A stretch of 60,283 bases of DNA from assembly GCA_022563885.1 (NCBI GenBank), contig JADFMM010000006.1, positions 1 through 60,283 on the forward strand, written 5' to 3'. The translations under genes were made by a program, and so were the position numbers. The notes under the pieces are model-generated. The model did no database searches. It had not been told where the DNA came from and worked only from the letters and a program-made list of their open reading frames with translations. Positions 5,996-15,472 of the stretch are shown one piece after another. How positions within the stretch are numbered: the stretch's first letter is position 1; each line of letters opens with the position of its first letter. Source of the stretch: Planctomycetota bacterium (lineage in GTDB: Bacteria; Planctomycetota; Phycisphaerae; Sedimentisphaerales; Anaerobacaceae).

Positions 5996-8900
5996 TCACC
6001 GGTTCATCTGGGTCAGACATCCGCGGGCGGCTGCGCTCAACCGGCCCTGTGGCGACCGAGAGGCGGCTTCGAGTTGATCCTGAATCACCTGTTTCTCCTT
6101 GAAGTGCTTCATGGCGTGAAGCCGCATGAGGGCATGGGCCGCGCCACGACGAACCGATGCCGCCTCACTGGAAAGGGCAATGACGAGCTTCCTGATGGCG
6201 TCGGGAAGTAGCAGCCCCTTGCGCAGGATGGCATCCGCGGGACTCCTGTCGCTGACGGCATCGAATTCTACGATGAGCTGGACCGCATCGAGATGATCTG
6301 GCAGGGCCAACCCGTGGATCTGAGCATACATGGTGACGTAGTCATGCAGAAGGCGCAGCCAACGATGGTCTCTCCGGAAGGCATTGAATGAAAGTTCGGC
6401 GTAGGCCAGTTTGACGGGACGCCCCGCCTCATCGCGATAGAGCCCGCGACTCCCGTGGCGATAGATCGAGACGGCATCTTGGAGCGCTGCAAGCAGGGAA
6501 TTTCCCGTGAATCCCTGAAACTTGATCCCATCTGTCGCCTCACCCATGTCCCCGAAGTCTCGGTCGGTGACCGTTCGCGTCAATCCGTCCTGGTGATGGG
6601 CTATGACCGGTGTTCCTCCGGCATGGGCCTCCTGTTGACTGATCCCACAGGGCTCTCCGATGTCTCCCCCCGAGGGCATGACAAAAAACTGGCTCCCCAA
6701 GTAGAGATTGCGGTAGAGCGAGGGAGGCAGCGTCCCTTCGGGGAAGTAGGCGAAGCGTCCCTGAAAGTCGGGCCGCTGGGCTATGCGTTGCAGATGGGCG
6801 TCGAATCGGCGTCCGTCGCCACTATCCTCAACCCGCCCACAGATAACGAACTGTACCTCTTCATTCGTGGACAGAAAGTGTTCCAGCAGGGTAGACCCCC
6901 TCATATTCCAGGCTTCACAGTGAAAATCCAAGTGTCCCTCTCTTGGATACACCTTCCAGTCGACCAGCAACTCGAACCCCTTTTGGCGACAGATGCGATG
7001 CAGCATGCCGAAGATGATGTGATGTTGTCCCTGTTTGTCAGGGCGCAGTCGGATGTGCGGATCCTCTTGCAGATGCGCTTTGGCCGTCTGTTTGATACGC
7101 GTATATTTGAGAAAGAGCCGTTTCGAGGCGGCGGGGCTATAGGTCTCCAACAGGCTCTTCTTGCTGCCAAACCAGAAACGCTGGCGCGCAGCCATATTGA
7201 AACCGTTGCGCTTGCCGAAGAAGCGGCCCGTCTCTGCCTTCTCTCGGAAGAGGTGGGCATGGCCGAAGAGCCAGGGCTCATCGAGAATGCGTTGTCGCAT
7301 GGCCCGACTGACGGTGCCAATAAAAGCAGAGGTCTTCAGCATGATGTGGGTAAGGTCGATGTCACGACCCGTTTGACTATCGGGATCGAGTAGGAGGGCG
7401 AACTGCATGGTGCGATCAAAATCCAGCACGGCGCAGTAATAAGACCATTTGAGGGGATCAGTCTCCGCCAGCACAATGCTGTAAGCAGGATGGGGATTGT
7501 GCATCATGCTCAGGGTTTCGGTCCCCTTGAAATGTGGATCATCACGGAAAGTGACCTGATGCCTCAGGTAGGCGGGAATGAGCCAAGTCGGCCATTCATT
7601 GGTCTGAATGATGGTGGGATAATAGTTAAAGGCGCGCAGGGCCTCCAAGGCGGACTGTGCGAACAAGCGGGCCCGGCGCAGCTTGTCCTCCGCCGTTTCA
7701 CCCCCATAGGGCCGGTCGAAGTAGGTTCCGTTCTCCAGGTAGATCACTTCGACCCGGGACCGCTTGCCGTGACTGATCCGGTTGAGTTTGGCGCGCAGGA
7801 AATTGACCACATCGGATGACTCTCCCGGATGGATGCTCCGGTTGTGCTCGTCGAATCGCGGGAAGGTCACGGTATAGCTATGGCCTTCGTATTTGGGAGC
7901 AAACTGGCTGAAGATATGGTTGCGATTGCACTCATAGAGGGGCGTGACAATCACCACGTGGAAACCCATCTCGCTCAACACGTCGGCCATGTCGGTGGTG
8001 TACAGACCCACGCCACCCGAACTGCCGCTGAATTTGGACTCCGGCGAGACCATGGCAATGGTGCCGATGTTAATGGAGTGAAGAATATCGGCCGCCGCCA
8101 GGCGGACGCGAATCTCCACTTGGCGACTCTTCCGGACGGCGATTCTCATCAGATAGTCAATGATGACCTCTCGTTGATGGGCGTCCTCCTCGCTGATCTC
8201 GGCCAACACCGTCGCCAGGTCGGCGATGCCCAGTTTTCGCTTCTTGTCGATCCAGGTGACCACCGTCACAAACAACTCTATGAAGCGTCGTAATCTGGTT
8301 TTCCCTGGCTGCGAGGCCTGCCGGAAGGCCGATCCGATATAGCTGTGCCGAACGCGGTCCGTCTTGCCATAACGGAAATAGCGGAGAAATGAATCAATGA
8401 GCACGGGCGGTTCATCGACGGCGTGATCTCGATTGATGAGTTCATACACGTGAGAAGAGACCGGTGACAAGACACCGCCGAAGCCGAGGTGCACGAGTTC
8501 CTCGCCCGACCAGTAAGATCTTTCACCTCTGCCTCTGCGACCCTCGGCATTGTTATAGCGTTCTCGAATCTCGTAGATAAGATCCGATTGGATCTCATCG
8601 GGTAAGTCACCCGTCGCCGCCTGCTTGAAGGTAAAGTTAAACTCACGAGCCACTGCCTGTTGGCCTTCATGGTGGGGATTGGGAAAATTGAAGACACAGA
8701 GAAAGGATTGGCCGCCATGTGTTCGTAGGAAGGCGGCAATACGCCCGTTGTGGGTCTCAATCGGCGTCAAGGTGCCTTTGGTCAATGCCGTATGCTCATC
8801 CGCAAAGGCAAAGAGACCTCTCAGATAGAGGCCAAAGCCGGCCAGCAACGGATAGCGATCCATGATCTCTCGCTTCGCGCCAAATTCGCCGGGCCAGGGA

Positions 8901-11503
8901 TGCTGGAAGCGATTGTTGACCCAGTGCTTCCAGCATTCGAGATAGGCCTGATCGAACCTCTCTCGAAGGGACCCCGCTTCTTCTCCCGGTAGACGGCTGA
9001 TATGGTACATGAGAGGGCCATAGCTGCTGAAGACCAGAAAGGCCGCCGCCGGCCAAATCATGTTCTGGTAGTTGCTCGCCGGGGCCTCTTCGTCGTGGCT
9101 GTTAAACAGGGAGATCGTCTGACCGCCAAACTCATTGATGACCCGCCCCAAGTAGCGAAGATTGTCATTGAGGCCCAAGGCTTCGTGGATGGATTCCCCC
9201 GTGCGGATGTTTTCCAGGTTCTTGATGAGGGAGTTATAGGGAACGGCACCGCTCTGTAACATGCGCGCTTCGTTGCCGTGCCACTGCTCAACATAGACCA
9301 CCGGCACGGCGGCATTCTTCTTCTGCGTGCGATAGTGGAGATAGAGCAGAGGGATGTTTGGCTGCGAACTGCCGCGCAGATCCACGGGTTCAAAACCCGG
9401 CACGGTGACCTCTCCGAACAAGCGAGCGGTGCCGGAGAGGTCGGGATGAACCGGGAAGACCGTATCATACCCGTGCCCCACATCGATGCGCAATCCGAAA
9501 CCCAAGGCAGCCAATTCCTCGGCAATCCGTGCGAGACGCTGAACATTGGCAAAATCCCGCATATTCACCATGAAGCTGTCATACCACTGATCCCACTCTC
9601 CGTCCCAGCCGGCCCGGCGGGTCAATCGATGGTCATCCTCCAAGATATAGGCAGGAAAATGATAGGGATAGTCCTGTCGCGCCCGGGAAAAATGGGAGAG
9701 CGCGCAGAGAATGACCTTCATGCCGAGTCTGTCCGCCTCCGCTCTCAGGCCGAGCAGGCCTTCGATCCCGCCCATGTCACGGCGAACGGTCCAACCGTCA
9801 GAGACCGAAAAAACGGAGGGATCCGGTCCCGCCTCGCCTGGCCAGCCCAACTCCAGCGCACCCAAGGGATAGATGCGTGTATAGCCCTCGGCCTTGATAC
9901 CTGCCAACTGCTCGGCGATCGTTTGAAAGGTCCCGTAGACATATCGCCCCCGATCATCGCGGAGGGGCCTCTGTTGATCGTCCAAGCTTAGATTGAAGGT
10001 GTCCGCATAGAAACTGAGAATGCGCTCTCCCCTCTCGTCGGGGATGAATTTGAGCAATCCATTGGAGGCCTTGTCCGAGACCTCGCTCTTCCAACTCTTG
10101 CCCTGATCCTCCGATATCTGAACCGAATAGTGGATCCAACCCTTTCGAGCGGGAAACTCGCCCCGAAACACGATTCGACTGCCCTTGCTCCCCTGCTTGA
10201 CGGGCTCCATCATGACCGGTCGTTTACGGTGCCCGTTGATCGACCACTGCATTCTCGCCCGCACGTGGCCTGCGTTGATCCGGGGGCGTTTGTGCACGGT
10301 CACCTGCACCCGAGCCATTTCCGTGCGCAGCACACACCGGTTGATGCGGCTGGCGGGAAAGCTCGTCGGACGCTCGGTCAGCAGATCCTCCAGGATCTTG
10401 CTCACACGCAGACAGATCGATCGGCTCATCCCACGGTCGGGATTGAACCAGTAATAGAGACCGGCGTAGAGCAAGCGAATGGACTCCTCGGCGTTGTCCT
10501 TGCTATGAATCTTCTCAACCAATGCGTCTATCGCTGCCTGCGCCGTCGAGACATCGCTGGAGGTCAGGTTTTGAGCCAACGAGAGCAAGGGGGGATCCTT
10601 CTGATAGAGCTTCACTCTCTCCAGATAGGGCCTTATGAAGCGACCATGATCGTAGAAGATCTCCGTCCGCGTATCCCCATGGGTGATGGCATGGCAGGCG
10701 GCAGGAGAGGCCATCGCATCCAGGAATCGGGATCGACAGATACGAATGCATTTTCGCGTGGTTCTGCCCAACGCGTAGATGAAGACGATTGATTCCGTAT
10801 CGGGGACAAACACGCTGAAACGCGTCACCGGAGCGACAACCTCCCGACTGAGGCTGTGCTCCTTCTCAAACTGCGTTTGCAGTCGGCCCACGTCATCTTT
10901 GATCTTCCGTTTCACGTGAAGCGGATCGTTCCTGACTCGCCTTAGCAGCGTACAGGCGCCAAAGGCGTGGCAACCCACCCAGGTCCAGAACCGCTCCAGC
11001 AGCAATATCTCATGCCGATGAGAGAGTACCTCCGACCAGAGGCGCAACTCGCCATTCTCCTTGCGCCGCTCGCATTCCTCCAGCGTGGCCGCACAGATGC
11101 ATGCCTGACCCGCAAGAAACCGGAGGGAATGATGCATGACCTCTCCGATATGGGCATCGGGTCGTGTCGCATGAAACAGTGTCCGCTCCAACAAACCTAT
11201 CAGAAAAAGCCGTCGGACGTCCTTCTGATCAGGGTCAAAACTGAGCAAATCCCGGTCGAGCAGGATTTCCTGGGGGGCCAATCGCACCAACTCGTCGAGT
11301 GACTCTACCAAGCGAACGTTGAGCGTCCTGCCCAACAAATCCCGATAGCGGTCGGTCGCAAAGGAAGAGAGATGAGACAGGGTCTGATTCAGCGTGCTGG
11401 TGAAGAAACGCGTCTGATTGGGACCCAGTATCTGGCTCAGACCGGGACCACGGACATCACACTTCCCCTTTTCGTCGATATGTACCGAGGTGAGGCTGTC
11501 CAT
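5996..11503 (-). CDS. Giant GH13 alpha-amylase-family / GT5 glycogen-synthase fusion
   Basis: 1835 residues from the ATG at 11503 (AGGGA upstream; a TTG two codons earlier is possible). Residues 1 to about 400 are unrecognised and mostly helical. About 410-520 resembles a beta-sandwich carbohydrate module as in GlgE-type enzymes. About 530-1000 is a GH13 barrel keeping all three catalytic acids: nucleophile in LRIDVGHG (about 674), acid/base in VYVEQWHGN (about 741) and aspartate in NSHDEE (about 805). From about 1150 a GT5 domain begins with the ADP-glucose loop-like SGSSGGVG. Its C-terminal half has GEPCGISQQEAHAGG, the E-x7-E motif, near 1620. The last 100 residues look like HEAT repeats. 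No signal peptide: cytoplasmic glycogen work. Divergent from a GT35-like gene. Confidence 0.88.
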   Translation of the reverse strand: MDSLTSVHIDEKGKCDVRGPGLSQILGPNQTRFFTSTLNQTLSHLSSFATDRYRDLLGRTLNVRLVESLDELVRLAPQEILLDRDLLSFDPDQKDVRRLFLIGLLERTLFHATRPDAHIGEVMHHSLRFLAGQACICAATLEECERRKENGELRLWSEVLSHRHEILLLERFWTWVGCHAFGACTLLRRVRNDPLHVKRKIKDDVGRLQTQFEKEHSLSREVVAPVTRFSVFVPDTESIVFIYALGRTTRKCIRICRSRFLDAMASPAACHAITHGDTRTEIFYDHGRFIRPYLERVKLYQKDPPLLSLAQNLTSSDVSTAQAAIDALVEKIHSKDNAEESIRLLYAGLYYWFNPDRGMSRSICLRVSKILEDLLTERPTSFPASRINRCVLRTEMARVQVTVHKRPRINAGHVRARMQWSINGHRKRPVMMEPVKQGSKGSRIVFRGEFPARKGWIHYSVQISEDQGKSWKSEVSDKASNGLLKFIPDERGERILSFYADTFNLSLDDQQRPLRDDRGRYVYGTFQTIAEQLAGIKAEGYTRIYPLGALELGWPGEAGPDPSVFSVSDGWTVRRDMGGIEGLLGLRAEADRLGMKVILCALSHFSRARQDYPYHFPAYILEDDHRLTRRAGWDGEWDQWYDSFMVNMRDFANVQRLARIAEELAALGFGLRIDVGHGYDTVFPVHPDLSGTARLFGEVTVPGFEPVDLRGSSQPNIPLLYLHYRTQKKNAAVPVVYVEQWHGNEARMLQSGAVPYNSLIKNLENIRTGESIHEALGLNDNLRYLGRVINEFGGQTISLFNSHDEEAPASNYQNMIWPAAAFLVFSSYGPLMYHISRLPGEEAGSLRERFDQAYLECWKHWVNNRFQHPWPGEFGAKREIMDRYPLLAGFGLYLRGLFAFADEHTALTKGTLTPIETHNGRIAAFLRTHGGQSFLCVFNFPNPHHEGQQAVAREFNFTFKQAATGDLPDEIQSDLIYEIRERYNNAEGRRGRGERSYWSGEELVHLGFGGVLSPVSSHVYELINRDHAVDEPPVLIDSFLRYFRYGKTDRVRHSYIGSAFRQASQPGKTRLRRFIELFVTVVTWIDKKRKLGIADLATVLAEISEEDAHQREVIIDYLMRIAVRKSRQVEIRVRLAAADILHSINIGTIAMVSPESKFSGSSGGVGLYTTDMADVLSEMGFHVVIVTPLYECNRNHIFSQFAPKYEGHSYTVTFPRFDEHNRSIHPGESSDVVNFLRAKLNRISHGKRSRVEVIYLENGTYFDRPYGGETAEDKLRRARLFAQSALEALRAFNYYPTIIQTNEWPTWLIPAYLRHQVTFRDDPHFKGTETLSMMHNPHPAYSIVLAETDPLKWSYYCAVLDFDRTMQFALLLDPDSQTGRDIDLTHIMLKTSAFIGTVSRAMRQRILDEPWLFGHAHLFREKAETGRFFGKRNGFNMAARQRFWFGSKKSLLETYSPAASKRLFLKYTRIKQTAKAHLQEDPHIRLRPDKQGQHHIIFGMLHRICRQKGFELLVDWKVYPREGHLDFHCEAWNMRGSTLLEHFLSTNEEVQFVICGRVEDSGDGRRFDAHLQRIAQRPDFQGRFAYFPEGTLPPSLYRNLYLGSQFFVMPSGGDIGEPCGISQQEAHAGGTPVIAHHQDGLTRTVTDRDFGDMGEATDGIKFQGFTGNSLLAALQDAVSIYRHGSRGLYRDEAGRPVKLAYAELSFNAFRRDHRWLRLLHDYVTMYAQIHGLALPDHLDAVQLIVEFDAVSDRSPADAILRKGLLLPDAIRKLVIALSSEAASVRRGAAHALMRLHAMKHFKEKQVIQDQLEAASRSPQGRLSAAARGCLTQMNR

Positions 11504-11509
11504 CGTCAA

Positions 11510-11821
11510 TCGTCCCTAGGCGGGCGCGTTCGTGGTAGCATGGACCCGAAGTCACTCCAGCGCCAGTCTAAGCGGGCAAGTCACTTATCGCCACTTAAAA
11601 GGGCCCCAGACGTTAGTAGCGACGTGACAAGATAATGCTTGACAAGACCAGAGAACTCTCCACCATGGACTCCATCCTGGCAATGGCTAAGAGTGAACAC
11701 TCTGCATCCCGCGCAGAGTGAACCCTCAAAACGACATAACAAGAAACATAAGGACGAGCGGCCTCGCGCAAGGATGCCGTGACTGCTTGGATCGTTGTGT
11801 ATTATGCTGGAGGAATTGGGT
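11510..11821. promoter_or_regulatory. Divergent intergenic region of the glucan gene pair
   Basis: About 310 bp that must hold promoters for both the GH13-GT5 gene (leftward) and the GT35-like gene (rightward). It contains a perfect eight-base inverted repeat, CACTCTGC / GCAGAGTG, at 11698-11720 with a seven-base spacer, a plausible operator serving both genes. A TTGACA at 11639-11644 lacks a good -10 partner. Confidence 0.4.
11698..11720. repeat. Inverted repeat CACTCTGC-N7-GCAGAGTG
   Basis: The eight-base arms are perfect, and the copies extend as CACTCTGC and GCAGAGTG flanked by similar GTGAAC sequence. It lies about 100 bp before the GT35-like start, without a T-run, so an operator is more likely than a terminator. 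Confidence 0.4.
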
Positions 11822-13726
11822 GTGAAGAGGTGCGGTGCAACCTGGATCGACATCAACGCCCCACTGCTGCGTTACAAACTTATCGTAACCGTTTCGATGG
11901 AGGGTTATATTCCCGAGTTTGAGGGCGATGCCCGCGAGGCAAATACGAAGGGAGGATTGGGCGTCTATTTCGGAGACAAGCTGGAGGGTCTGGCTGCTAT
12001 AGGGATCCGCAATGCATTTGGCTGTATGCCCATGTACGACAAACGCCTGGTGCAGCAGATCCGCAACGGACGGCAAGAAATAGACTATCGAGAAGTCTCC
12101 TACGATCAACAGCCCGTCACGCCGCTGCTCGATGAAGATCGGCAACCCATTAAATTGGAGGTGTGGGGCATCAACACCGAGAATCCCCTCGAGGAGGTTC
12201 GTCATGAGGCAGAGGTGTTCTGTACCTATCGAGGCGGCACGCCCCTCTATCTCTTCCGCTGTCCCAAGGTCTTCGACATACTCTACCCCGACGAAACCAC
12301 GCATCAATGCTTGGGACGCCGTCACCGCTTCCTGCAAGAGACGATATTCGCCCAATGTGTCCCCAGACTCTTCAAGCGTCTCGGCGTCATTCCCGATGCG
12401 CTGCTGATCAACGAGGGTCACGTGGCTGTCGCCGGAGCGATCACACGGGGCGACCCCGTCTTCAACAAGACCGCCATCCTCTATACCAATCACACGGTCG
12501 TACCCGCGGGCTTGGAGGTCTTCGACGTCGATGAACTGGTGGGCAACGATCTAGGCCGGGCACGATACATCATGCGTTTCCCTTCCCAAAGCTGGCAGTG
12601 GCTCTGGAAGAAATTCATTGTAGAGAGCGAGGGCAAGGTCCTGATCGACTTTTCCAAAGGCGCCCTGGAAATCTGCAGCGCGGCCAATGCCGTTAGTGCC
12701 GAACACGCCGGCATGACCCGAAGCCTTTTTCCTTCGCACAACAAACACATCCACCCGATACTCAATGGCTCGGGCGACACCTGGGTCCAGCGAGAACTTC
12801 TCGAACTGGAGCGCCAGGGGATTCAGCCAAGCGCCGAGGAGTTGCTGGCATTGGGGCTCCAAGGAAAACGGACCGCCCGCGAGGCCATTCGACGGAGGAC
12901 CATGGATCTGACCAATCAACAGGGCAAGGTCATCGCCGCCGAGGGGCGAGAATTGAACCTGGACATGCCCGCTGTCTGGTTGGTCCGCCGCATTGTGGAT
13001 TACAAGAGCCAGTACCCCATCCTGAAGGACATCATTCACATCCTCTGCGCCGATCGCGAGCAGAGGGTCGATAGCCGCTGGGGTCTTAGGCGCGGGCTAG
13101 GCATGCAAGTCGTCGTTGGGGGTGTCGCGCCGCTGAATAGCCATGAACAGACCTGGATAGAGGCCTTTGTCCAATGGATGGAAAGGCCGGACCTGAAGAA
13201 CCGATTTTTCTTTGTGCCAGGGGGTGACACCGAATTGCTGAGACTGCAGGCCATCGGCGCGGACATCTGCCTCAATTGCCCGCAGCCCGGCCGAGAGGCC
13301 TGCGGCACGAGCGATCAGCGCAGCGCGCGAAACGGTGGCATAAACATTGCCGTCCACAGCGGTGGACCGCCGGAATATCTGGAGGATGGCAGGAGCGGCA
13401 TGCTGATCGGCCCTTACATCAACAACAAGGACTTTTTCGATCTAGCCCCCAAACACATCCTCGAGAAGCTGGAGGTGTTGGCAGACATGTACTACGCCCA
13501 GGGGCGAAACGACCTGCGTTGGCGGGAGATGAAACTGCAATCCTATCTTGCCAGCCGACAGGTCTCTGCAGCCGCCATGGAGCAGCGCTATGCGCCCGTT
13601 TACGTGCAAGCCATCCGCTCCAGGCTTGAGAATCTGCAGGACCCGGAGTCTCGGCATCACGTCGAGACAACATCGGACCAGTATCACCAACCCGTCCAGA
13701 ATACGTACACTGGTCTGACGGGCTAG
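11822..13726 (+). CDS. GT35 glycogen-phosphorylase-like protein lacking the PLP lysine
   Basis: 634 residues from a GTG at 11822, chosen because GGAGGA lies seven bases upstream. The phosphorylase fold is recognisable: GGLGVYFGDKLEG (family GGLGVLAGD), LINEGHVAVAG (LNEGHSAF), TNHTVVPAGLEVFD (TTHTPVPAGHD), a HPILNGSGDTW loop, and near the C-terminus GREACGTSDQRSARNGG. In true phosphorylases the last motif is EASGTSGMKAAxNG and its lysine binds pyridoxal phosphate. Here that position is arginine (residue 500), so a Schiff base cannot form. It is therefore either a PLP-independent glucosyltransferase or a catalytically dead glucan-binding or regulatory protein. It is cytoplasmic and divergent from the GH13-GT5 gene, with which it probably works. 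Confidence 0.82.
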   Translation: MKRCGATWIDINAPLLRYKLIVTVSMEGYIPEFEGDAREANTKGGLGVYFGDKLEGLAAIGIRNAFGCMPMYDKRLVQQIRNGRQEIDYREVSYDQQPVTPLLDEDRQPIKLEVWGINTENPLEEVRHEAEVFCTYRGGTPLYLFRCPKVFDILYPDETTHQCLGRRHRFLQETIFAQCVPRLFKRLGVIPDALLINEGHVAVAGAITRGDPVFNKTAILYTNHTVVPAGLEVFDVDELVGNDLGRARYIMRFPSQSWQWLWKKFIVESEGKVLIDFSKGALEICSAANAVSAEHAGMTRSLFPSHNKHIHPILNGSGDTWVQRELLELERQGIQPSAEELLALGLQGKRTAREAIRRRTMDLTNQQGKVIAAEGRELNLDMPAVWLVRRIVDYKSQYPILKDIIHILCADREQRVDSRWGLRRGLGMQVVVGGVAPLNSHEQTWIEAFVQWMERPDLKNRFFFVPGGDTELLRLQAIGADICLNCPQPGREACGTSDQRSARNGGINIAVHSGGPPEYLEDGRSGMLIGPYINNKDFFDLAPKHILEKLEVLADMYYAQGRNDLRWREMKLQSYLASRQVSAAAMEQRYAPVYVQAIRSRLENLQDPESRHHVETTSDQYHQPVQNTYTGLTG

Positions 13727-13852: not shown

Positions 13853-13920
13853 CCCTTGATCTGCCTTGCTTCAGAGGGGTAGAATGGTTTTCATGGTCGA
13901 AGAATCAAAATGCCTATCAG
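13833..13920 (+). repeat. Duplicated upstream region, copy 1
   Basis: About 88 bp that recurs at 15667-15754 with a constant offset of 1834 bp. A run of about 28 bases around the promoter (CTTGATCTGCC to AGAGGGGTA) is identical; the remainder is clearly similar. Copy 1 includes the right arm of the terminator. Confidence 0.85.
13856..13885 (+). promoter_or_regulatory. Sigma-70-like promoter TTGATC-18-TAGAAT
   Basis: The -35 is TTGATC at 13856-13861 and the -10 is TAGAAT at 13880-13885. The predicted start leaves a leader of about 48 bases before the exported-protein gene. The same -35 and spacer are kept in the duplicated copy before the PQQ gene. Confidence 0.55.
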
Positions 13921-13939
13921 TATCAATCGGAGGTCCATG

Positions 13940-15472
13940 ATGTTTACCAAACTCGCGACAAGACGAGCGTTTCTCAGGTCAGCCTCCACAGGCAGTCTCG
14001 CGGCGATAGGTGGCTTCGCTTTCCTGTCCCAATTGCCGCGGGTCTCGGCCGAGGACACCCAATTGAAACCGAAACTGGTGAAGTTCGATGGTCACATTGA
14101 GCCGCTCGTGCGGCTGATCGAAGAATCACCCCGCGATAAGTTGCTGGAACGAGTCGCGCAACGCATTCGGGGTGGAACCTCCTACCGCGAAGTGCTGGCG
14201 GCGCTGTTGCTGGCGGGAATACGCAACGTCCAGCCGCGACCTTCAGTAGGATTCAAGTTCCACTGTGTACTGGTCGTCAACTCTTGCCACTTGGCGAGTC
14301 TGTCCGGGCCAGCCGAAGATCGATGGCTGCCGATCTTCTGGGCGTTGGACTATTTCAAGTCATCACAGGCTGATGAGGCGCGCCGCGGTGGCTGGCGCAT
14401 GAATTCCGTGAATGAATCGATCGTTCCCGATGCGTTGCGAGCCCGGCGTTTGTTTGTCGAGGCGATGGACGCATGGGACGCGGACAAGGCAGACGTCGCA
14501 ACCGCCGGCCTGGTCCGAACGGCGGGAGCGACCGAAGTGTTCAATCTATTTGCGCGCTATGCTGCTCGTGACTATCGATCGATCGGCCACAAAGCCATTT
14601 ACCTGGCGAACGCCTGGCGCACGCTGCAGGTCATTGGGTGGGAGTTTGCGGAGCCCGTATTGCGGTCCTTGACATTTGCTCTGTTGAACCATGGGGACGA
14701 GCCAAATCCGGCCCAGAGCGATCTGGCCGCCGACCGACCGTGGCGTGAAAACGTCGAAAGACTCGGTCGAATTCCTGACAACTGGCTCGGCGGAAAGCCC
14801 AATGACACTGTTCCCACAGAGCTGTTTCAGGCCTTCCGTCACGGAACTCCGTCTGCGGCCGCCGAGACGGCCGTCGAGGCGCTGTCGCGCGGAGTGGGGC
14901 CACAGTCTATCTGGGATGGTGTGTTCGTGGGAGCCGGCGAACTCCTAATGCGCCAGCCTGGCATCGTAGGATTGCATGGACTGACAACGGCGAACGCCAT
15001 GCATTATCTGTGGCGTACTGTGGCTGACGATGGCCTGCGACGCCAACTGCTGCTTCAGGCCTGTGCGTTCAACCCGATGTTTCGCGATTCGGCTAAAGGT
15101 CGCGGGGGGCTCGGTGACCAGCGGATCGAAGACCTGCGGCCCATGGCGACCGAGGCGAGCGGCAGCGAAGCACTGGCAGAGATCTTGGCTGACATTTCGG
15201 TGGACAGAATGCGGGCGGCGGCAAAAGTCGAGTACTTTCTTTCGTCCGGTGGCAACGGCCACGATCTGGTTAACGCGGCCAGGCGAATTCTGTTCCGCAA
15301 GGGCCGCGACGCGCACGATTACAAGTTCAGTTCGGCCGTACTCGAGGACTACCGCCATGTAAGCCCGGCATGGCGGAACCGTTTCTTGGCGATGTCCGTC
15401 TTCAACCTCAAGGGAAGCGGGCATCCCGACAGTGATTTGCTGAATCGCACTCGCTCGGCTCTGCAGGGATGA
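13940..15472 (+). CDS. Tat-exported protein of unknown function
   Basis: 510 residues from the second of two adjacent ATGs, six bases after GGAGG. The N-terminus TRRAFLRSASTGSLAAIGG is a twin-arginine signal, with cleavage near VSAED. The mature part is mostly helical, without a motif I recognise; HCVLVVNSCHLASL and several conserved-looking His/Trp segments (GLHGLTTANAMHYLW) suggest an enzyme or cofactor binder. It stands between a strong terminator and the exported PQQ protein, with which it shares a duplicated promoter region, so the two are probably co-expressed. Function unassigned. Confidence 0.85.
   Translation: MFTKLATRRAFLRSASTGSLAAIGGFAFLSQLPRVSAEDTQLKPKLVKFDGHIEPLVRLIEESPRDKLLERVAQRIRGGTSYREVLAALLLAGIRNVQPRPSVGFKFHCVLVVNSCHLASLSGPAEDRWLPIFWALDYFKSSQADEARRGGWRMNSVNESIVPDALRARRLFVEAMDAWDADKADVATAGLVRTAGATEVFNLFARYAARDYRSIGHKAIYLANAWRTLQVIGWEFAEPVLRSLTFALLNHGDEPNPAQSDLAADRPWRENVERLGRIPDNWLGGKPNDTVPTELFQAFRHGTPSAAAETAVEALSRGVGPQSIWDGVFVGAGELLMRQPGIVGLHGLTTANAMHYLWRTVADDGLRRQLLLQACAFNPMFRDSAKGRGGLGDQRIEDLRPMATEASGSEALAEILADISVDRMRAAAKVEYFLSSGGNGHDLVNAARRILFRKGRDAHDYKFSSAVLEDYRHVSPAWRNRFLAMSVFNLKGSGHPDSDLLNRTRSALQG

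Follow-up and report, generated by a model that had tools for sequence, protein, structure and literature searches.

GT35-like proteins with arginine at the pyridoxal phosphate lysine position form a clade in a small group of Phycisphaerae

The window, by which we mean the whole 60,283-nucleotide stretch of planctomycete DNA analysed here, carries an open reading frame at 11822-13726 of the forward strand whose translation is a 634-aa relative of the GT35 phosphorylases. It lies beside a long divergent gene, and the features of the two genes are as follows (window coordinates; residue numbers refer to the GT35-like protein).

5996..11509, minus strand: divergent neighbour of 1837 aa, with an N-terminus of about 430 aa without assignment, a GH13-like region and a GT5-like domain with EPCGISQQE, in which EX7E is kept (profiles)
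11809..11813, plus strand: GGAGG, a Shine-Dalgarno-like and likely ribosome-binding site, 8 bases 5' of the GTG start at 11822 (by eye)
11822..13726, plus strand: the GT35-like protein without the pyridoxal phosphate (PLP) lysine, 634 aa, in a frame open from 11795 (translation, TIGR02094 profile, structure-based alignment)
12491..12493, plus strand: His224 of TNHT, the His377 equivalent, kept (alignment)
12986..13009, plus strand: RRIVDYKS (389-396), with the phosphate residues Arg390 and Lys395 (Arg569/Lys574) and Tyr394 (Tyr573), kept (alignment)
13223..13225, plus strand: residue 468, Gly (Gly, Cys, Ala or Ser in the subfamily), at the site of the PLP-ring tyrosine Tyr648 (alignment)
13295..13336, plus strand: invariant motif EACGTSDQRSARNG, residues 492-505, in which Glu492 corresponds to Glu672 of muscle phosphorylase
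13319..13321, plus strand: Arg500 (codon CGC) at the PLP lysine position, aligned to Lys680 of the rabbit enzyme and Lys646 of E. coli MalP
13358..13378, plus strand: SGGPPEY loop (513-519) in place of the GT35 DGWWxE (alignment)

The gene downstream (13910-15472, plus strand) encodes a 520-aa product for which Pfam gave no match and in which a Tat-like signal is visible by eye; it is syntenic and 97% identical in the sister genome (G001).

Covalent PLP is regarded as a hallmark of glycogen phosphorylase. The preliminary description of this gene had claimed that the lysine that binds PLP is replaced by arginine at residue 500, and both translation and alignment confirm this. EACGTSDQRSARNG aligns without gaps to the EASGTSGMK/EASGTGNMK motif of phosphorylases, indicating that Arg500 occupies the site of the imine-forming lysine. 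Consistent with this, an alignment of a seven-member profile with solved phosphorylases pairs Arg500 with the PLP lysine in E. coli MalP, again with no gap in the motif, and the placement was confirmed against TIGR02094 proteins by profile-profile comparison (hhalign, E 7.7e-36). The column holds lysine in 50/50 GT35 relatives and arginine in all nine subfamily proteins. These nine distinct homologues share 55-97% identity with the window protein; each carries EACGTSDQRSARNG and none has lysine. They come from seven of the 89 genomes of the host family, in four genera. A second copy, 68% identical, is found in the window's own genome (contig C433).

Sequencing error or a decaying pseudogene would be the simplest account of such a change, and we found no point in its support. 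The motif is shared by nine distinct sequences from seven genomes, its codons vary synonymously among members, and there are no stops. In addition, dN/dS is 0.087 and 0.139 (0.09-0.14 rounded) in two close, unsaturated pairs; in the remaining pairs the synonymous sites are at or near saturation. The common motif, the differing synonymous codons and the low dN/dS together refute error or decay, and purifying selection bears out the earlier argument that fold-motif retention speaks against simple decay.

Searches at E 1e-14 covering 397 genomes from the class and 392 from the phylum gave no member outside the host family. Beyond the subfamily the next-best matches are ordinary GT35 proteins of about 22-30% identity, which keep GTSG(M/Q)K wherever the motif is visible. 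A plasmid search gave no subfamily member, and a scan of viral contigs for relatives gave just two ordinary GT35 pieces, in chimeric-looking contigs. One apparent homologue from Acidobacteria (L034:1-454) was rejected: 47 aa that are 89% identical to the window protein run into an unrelated reading frame, so the contig is probably chimeric. In the tree the subfamily forms a single clade with a long stem; the branches are very long, and the deep branching of the clade may be long-branch attraction. The clade is carried by a small group of Phycisphaerae, as sampled in a few genomes of one bacterial family, nearly all of them fragmented drafts.

The best curated family for the window protein is TIGR02094 (alpha-glucan family phosphorylase), matched with 102 bits over residues 44-586 (HMM 19-589 of 600), below the cut-off of 191.7. 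Members that match in one piece score about 94-135 bits, all under 191.7, and the match of the C630 copy in the sister genome is split into two shorter pieces. In the PDB, alpha-glucan phosphorylases (9l6i) rank first, ahead of MalP and other phosphorylases. Homology to the TIGR02094 family is therefore full-length, and the glucose and phosphate residues of GT35 have equivalents that are invariant in every case checked; the covalent PLP lysine of GTSGMK is absent.

We considered whether the protein could be a bacterial glycogen/starch synthase (GT5) mistaken for a phosphorylase. The starch synthase domain PF08323 scores 23.1 bits in the window protein, a bare excess over the cut-off of 22.7, and is matched by all seven members scanned (best 9e-11) versus 0/7 ordinary GT35 proteins. 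TIGR02095 (glgA) has no match in the window protein and weak matches, below its cut-off, in two of the seven members. However, TIGR02094 leads the family matches by a wide margin and covers nearly the whole length, and both halves of the protein match GT35 in profile-profile comparison (2.5e-23 and 4.2e-15), while neither has a good match to the GH57-linked GT5 proteins of the host; the one noteworthy GT5 match there is weak and falls on the GT5 domain of the neighbour. GT4/GT5 enzymes that use NDP-sugars usually have a second Glu at i+8 (EX7E), which holds the ribose, and in all members Glu492 is followed at i+8 by Arg500. GT5 membership was rejected on the profile-profile results, and a misplaced synthase is very improbable. 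Judged from sequence, the protein stands by descent beside GT35, failing as an alpha-glucan phosphorylase on the lysine and the curated score and as a GT5 enzyme on EX7E.

Which active-site residues persist was assessed against 50 GT35 relatives, in whose alignment 97 positions reach a conservation of 95% or more. All subfamily members keep 51 of these positions and 46 are not kept. The earlier statement that the remaining motifs are well kept holds for the 51, which include the sugar and phosphate shell, and fails for the 46, which include further PLP-site residues. Retained are G44-G45-L46-G47, E198, T222/H224/T225, N289, N315-G316 and W321, as well as R389-R390, Y394-K395, E492-A493, G495-T496-S497 and N504. 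In the numbering of the muscle enzyme this set includes the counterparts of the Gly135 loop, His377, Asn484, Trp491, Arg569, Tyr573, Lys574, Glu672, Gly675 and Thr676, most of which bind the glucosyl unit and the phosphate of the substrate; these roles are carried over from what is established for muscle phosphorylase and MalP. Across all nine members the equivalents of the residues that bind glucose and phosphate do not vary (GGLG, His224, Asn315, Arg390, Tyr394, Lys395, Glu492 and Gly495).

Several coordinated changes in the predicted PLP pocket, missed by the preliminary description, accompany the change of lysine to arginine. The Gly-Met that precedes the PLP lysine is Asp498-Gln499 in all members and the GKAHP lysine is Gly in the subfamily. 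Position 43, just before GGLG, is Lys or Arg. These changes bear on whether the protein could still be a PLP enzyme, with PLP held non-covalently through its phosphate and Arg500 next to the ring. The catalytic group of muscle phosphorylase is the PLP 5'-phosphate, not the imine, and the equivalents of the PLP-phosphate contacts (R389, K395, T496 and S497) are kept. Against this, the ring-packing tyrosine is Gly, Cys, Ala or Ser in every member and Asp498-Gln499 stands for Gly-Met, indicating that the PLP ring site is not under conservation; retention of PLP in this way is improbable. Only nine lysine positions do not vary across the subfamily (19, 53, 216, 264, 279, 349, 395, 402 and 571), and none of them stands out as compensating or lies near Arg500 in sequence, the nearest being K571 and K402; K395 corresponds to Lys574, which ordinarily binds phosphate. 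A substitute Schiff-base lysine is thus not apparent from sequence, short of proof. AlphaFold2 models made from few sequences were unusable (mean pLDDT 43.3 and 30.8). Given the confirmed lysine loss and no visible substitute, it follows, as proposed earlier, that the protein would have to use another mechanism or have a non-catalytic role.

The host has other glucan enzymes. The same genome encodes a classical TIGR02093 phosphorylase above its cut-off, so the GT35-like protein is an addition to, rather than a replacement of, an ordinary PLP phosphorylase and presumably does something additional. Most of the related genomes searched have ordinary TIGR02094 proteins above cut-off. In the window's genome (G000) an ordinary TIGR02094 phosphorylase on contig C421 (15044-15701, in L101) is split into two short pieces that lie in different frames, and one of the pieces contains an internal TAG; either the gene is broken or the assembly is at fault. 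This genome also encodes a 926-aa fusion of a GH57-like part (by eye) and a GlgA-like GT5 domain (contig C40; L089 / L102), and in eight related genomes no GlgA was found above the family cut-off.

The GH13-GT5 fusion gene adjoins the GT35-like gene in three genera, and homologues of it occur in six of 61 related genomes, including the window's own. The sister genome has the same divergent arrangement, across two overlapping contigs, and in G034 and G784 the neighbour homologue lies directly upstream of the GT35-like gene on the same strand. The two genes are also found apart, being on different contigs in G002, with the neighbour only in G004 and G042 and the GT35-like gene only in G020. By eye, the GH13-like region of the neighbour has RxD, Glu and HD motifs, under Pfam detection, and its layout recalls fungal alpha-1,3-glucan synthase. 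In two genera (G034 and G784) the GT35-like part continues into a GH133 amylo-alpha-1,6-glucosidase and a GH13 domain in one polypeptide of 1544-1567 aa:

L036:746-5368: GT35-like/GH133 (GDE_C)/GH13 single polypeptide, a would-be one-chain glycogen-processing enzyme
L109:1144-5847: the same architecture

The GH133 domain in G034 is nearly whole (GDE_C, 325 bits), and the domains of the G784 fusion were assigned by eye from similarity to it. In G020 (and, by eye, G327) a GH133 fragment alone remains after the GT35-like protein (L037:7124-7702, L048), suggesting loss of a fused debranching part. Overall the genomic context is alpha-glucan metabolism, without pointing to synthesis or breakdown, and fused debranching domains suit glucan breakdown more than synthesis.

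These fusions also bear on a non-catalytic reading, in which the protein is a pseudo-phosphorylase that has kept its glucan channel and works with the GH13-GT5 protein, or with the fused debranching domains, as a binding module or an allosteric partner. The lost cofactor, the 46 of 97 altered GT35 positions and the GH133 and GH13 fusions of two genera, where a binding module makes sense, are consistent with this. The catalytic-shell equivalents are nevertheless invariant in 9/9 members, and a mere binding module needs neither the phosphate residues Arg390 and Lys395 nor the Asp-Gln-Arg of the motif. We regard a non-catalytic role as possible but doubtful.

Retention of the glucosyl and phosphate sites with loss of the cofactor site suggests an active PLP-free enzyme. 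The reading that we prefer, with about an even chance of being right, is a clade that lacks the PLP site, stands beside the TIGR02094 branch of GT35 and probably still acts as a retaining GT-B enzyme on the non-reducing ends of alpha-1,4-glucans. Arg500, Lys/Arg43 and Arg389/Arg390/Lys395 would form a positive pocket at the usual site of the PLP phosphate, and this pocket may bind the donor phosphate or phosphates directly. In NDP-sugar GT-B enzymes the nucleotide phosphate occupies the PLP-phosphate site. A nucleotide-diphosphate glucose is the most likely donor of those considered, if only tentatively. We counted for it the PF08323 match in 7/7 members (0/7 for ordinary GT35), and against it Arg500 at the second Glu of EX7E and the failure to find a good GT5 profile-profile match. 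Next comes glucose-1-phosphate/phosphate without a cofactor, an unlikely option, in which Arg500 would replace the cofactor in PLP-free phosphorolysis; the fused debranching domains fit breakdown.

Among the titles listed by searches of open-access literature, none reported a GT35 protein lacking the PLP lysine. According to the proposal of a recent review, proto-GT35 was an NDP-sugar enzyme in which PLP came to stand in for a nucleoside monophosphate (PMC11046441). A GT35-lineage enzyme that used NDP-glucose instead of PLP and phosphate, at times fused to debranching and GH13 domains, would be a natural return to, or relic of, this proposed ancestral state; we hold this to be rather unlikely. 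A clade with the sugar and phosphate site but without the PLP site nonetheless makes the ancestral NDP-sugar proposal testable (PMC11046441). The subfamily probably processes glucose polymers by a cofactor-free route, and an annotation as 'alpha-glucan phosphorylase' can mislead on both cofactor and reaction.

Among known systems, the retaining trehalose phosphorylase of GT4 is a precedent for retaining GT-B phosphorolysis without PLP; it belongs to another family and acts on another acceptor. GT5 glycogen synthase (GlgA) shares the GT-B fold family, weak N-domain similarity (PF08323), the phosphate Arg/Lys pair and a GG-PE-like loop, but the window protein has Arg at the second Glu of EX7E and matches GlgA much more weakly overall than GT35. 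With classical phosphorylase (TIGR02093; E. coli MalP, muscle phosphorylase) it has the fold family and the substrate-site equivalents in common, whereas the PLP lysine is missing and the profile similarity is only distant. Compared with the TIGR02094 phosphorylases (GT35, GlgP type; solved 9l6i), the window protein is about 22-28% identical, scores below the cut-off, has the PLP Lys, ring Tyr, GKAHP Lys and DGWW replaced, and is without the N- and C-terminal extensions of their long forms (about 850 aa), yet shares with them full-length homology, the glucose and phosphate residues and the motifs GGLG, NEGH, T-H-T, NG, RR...YK, EA-GTS and NG.
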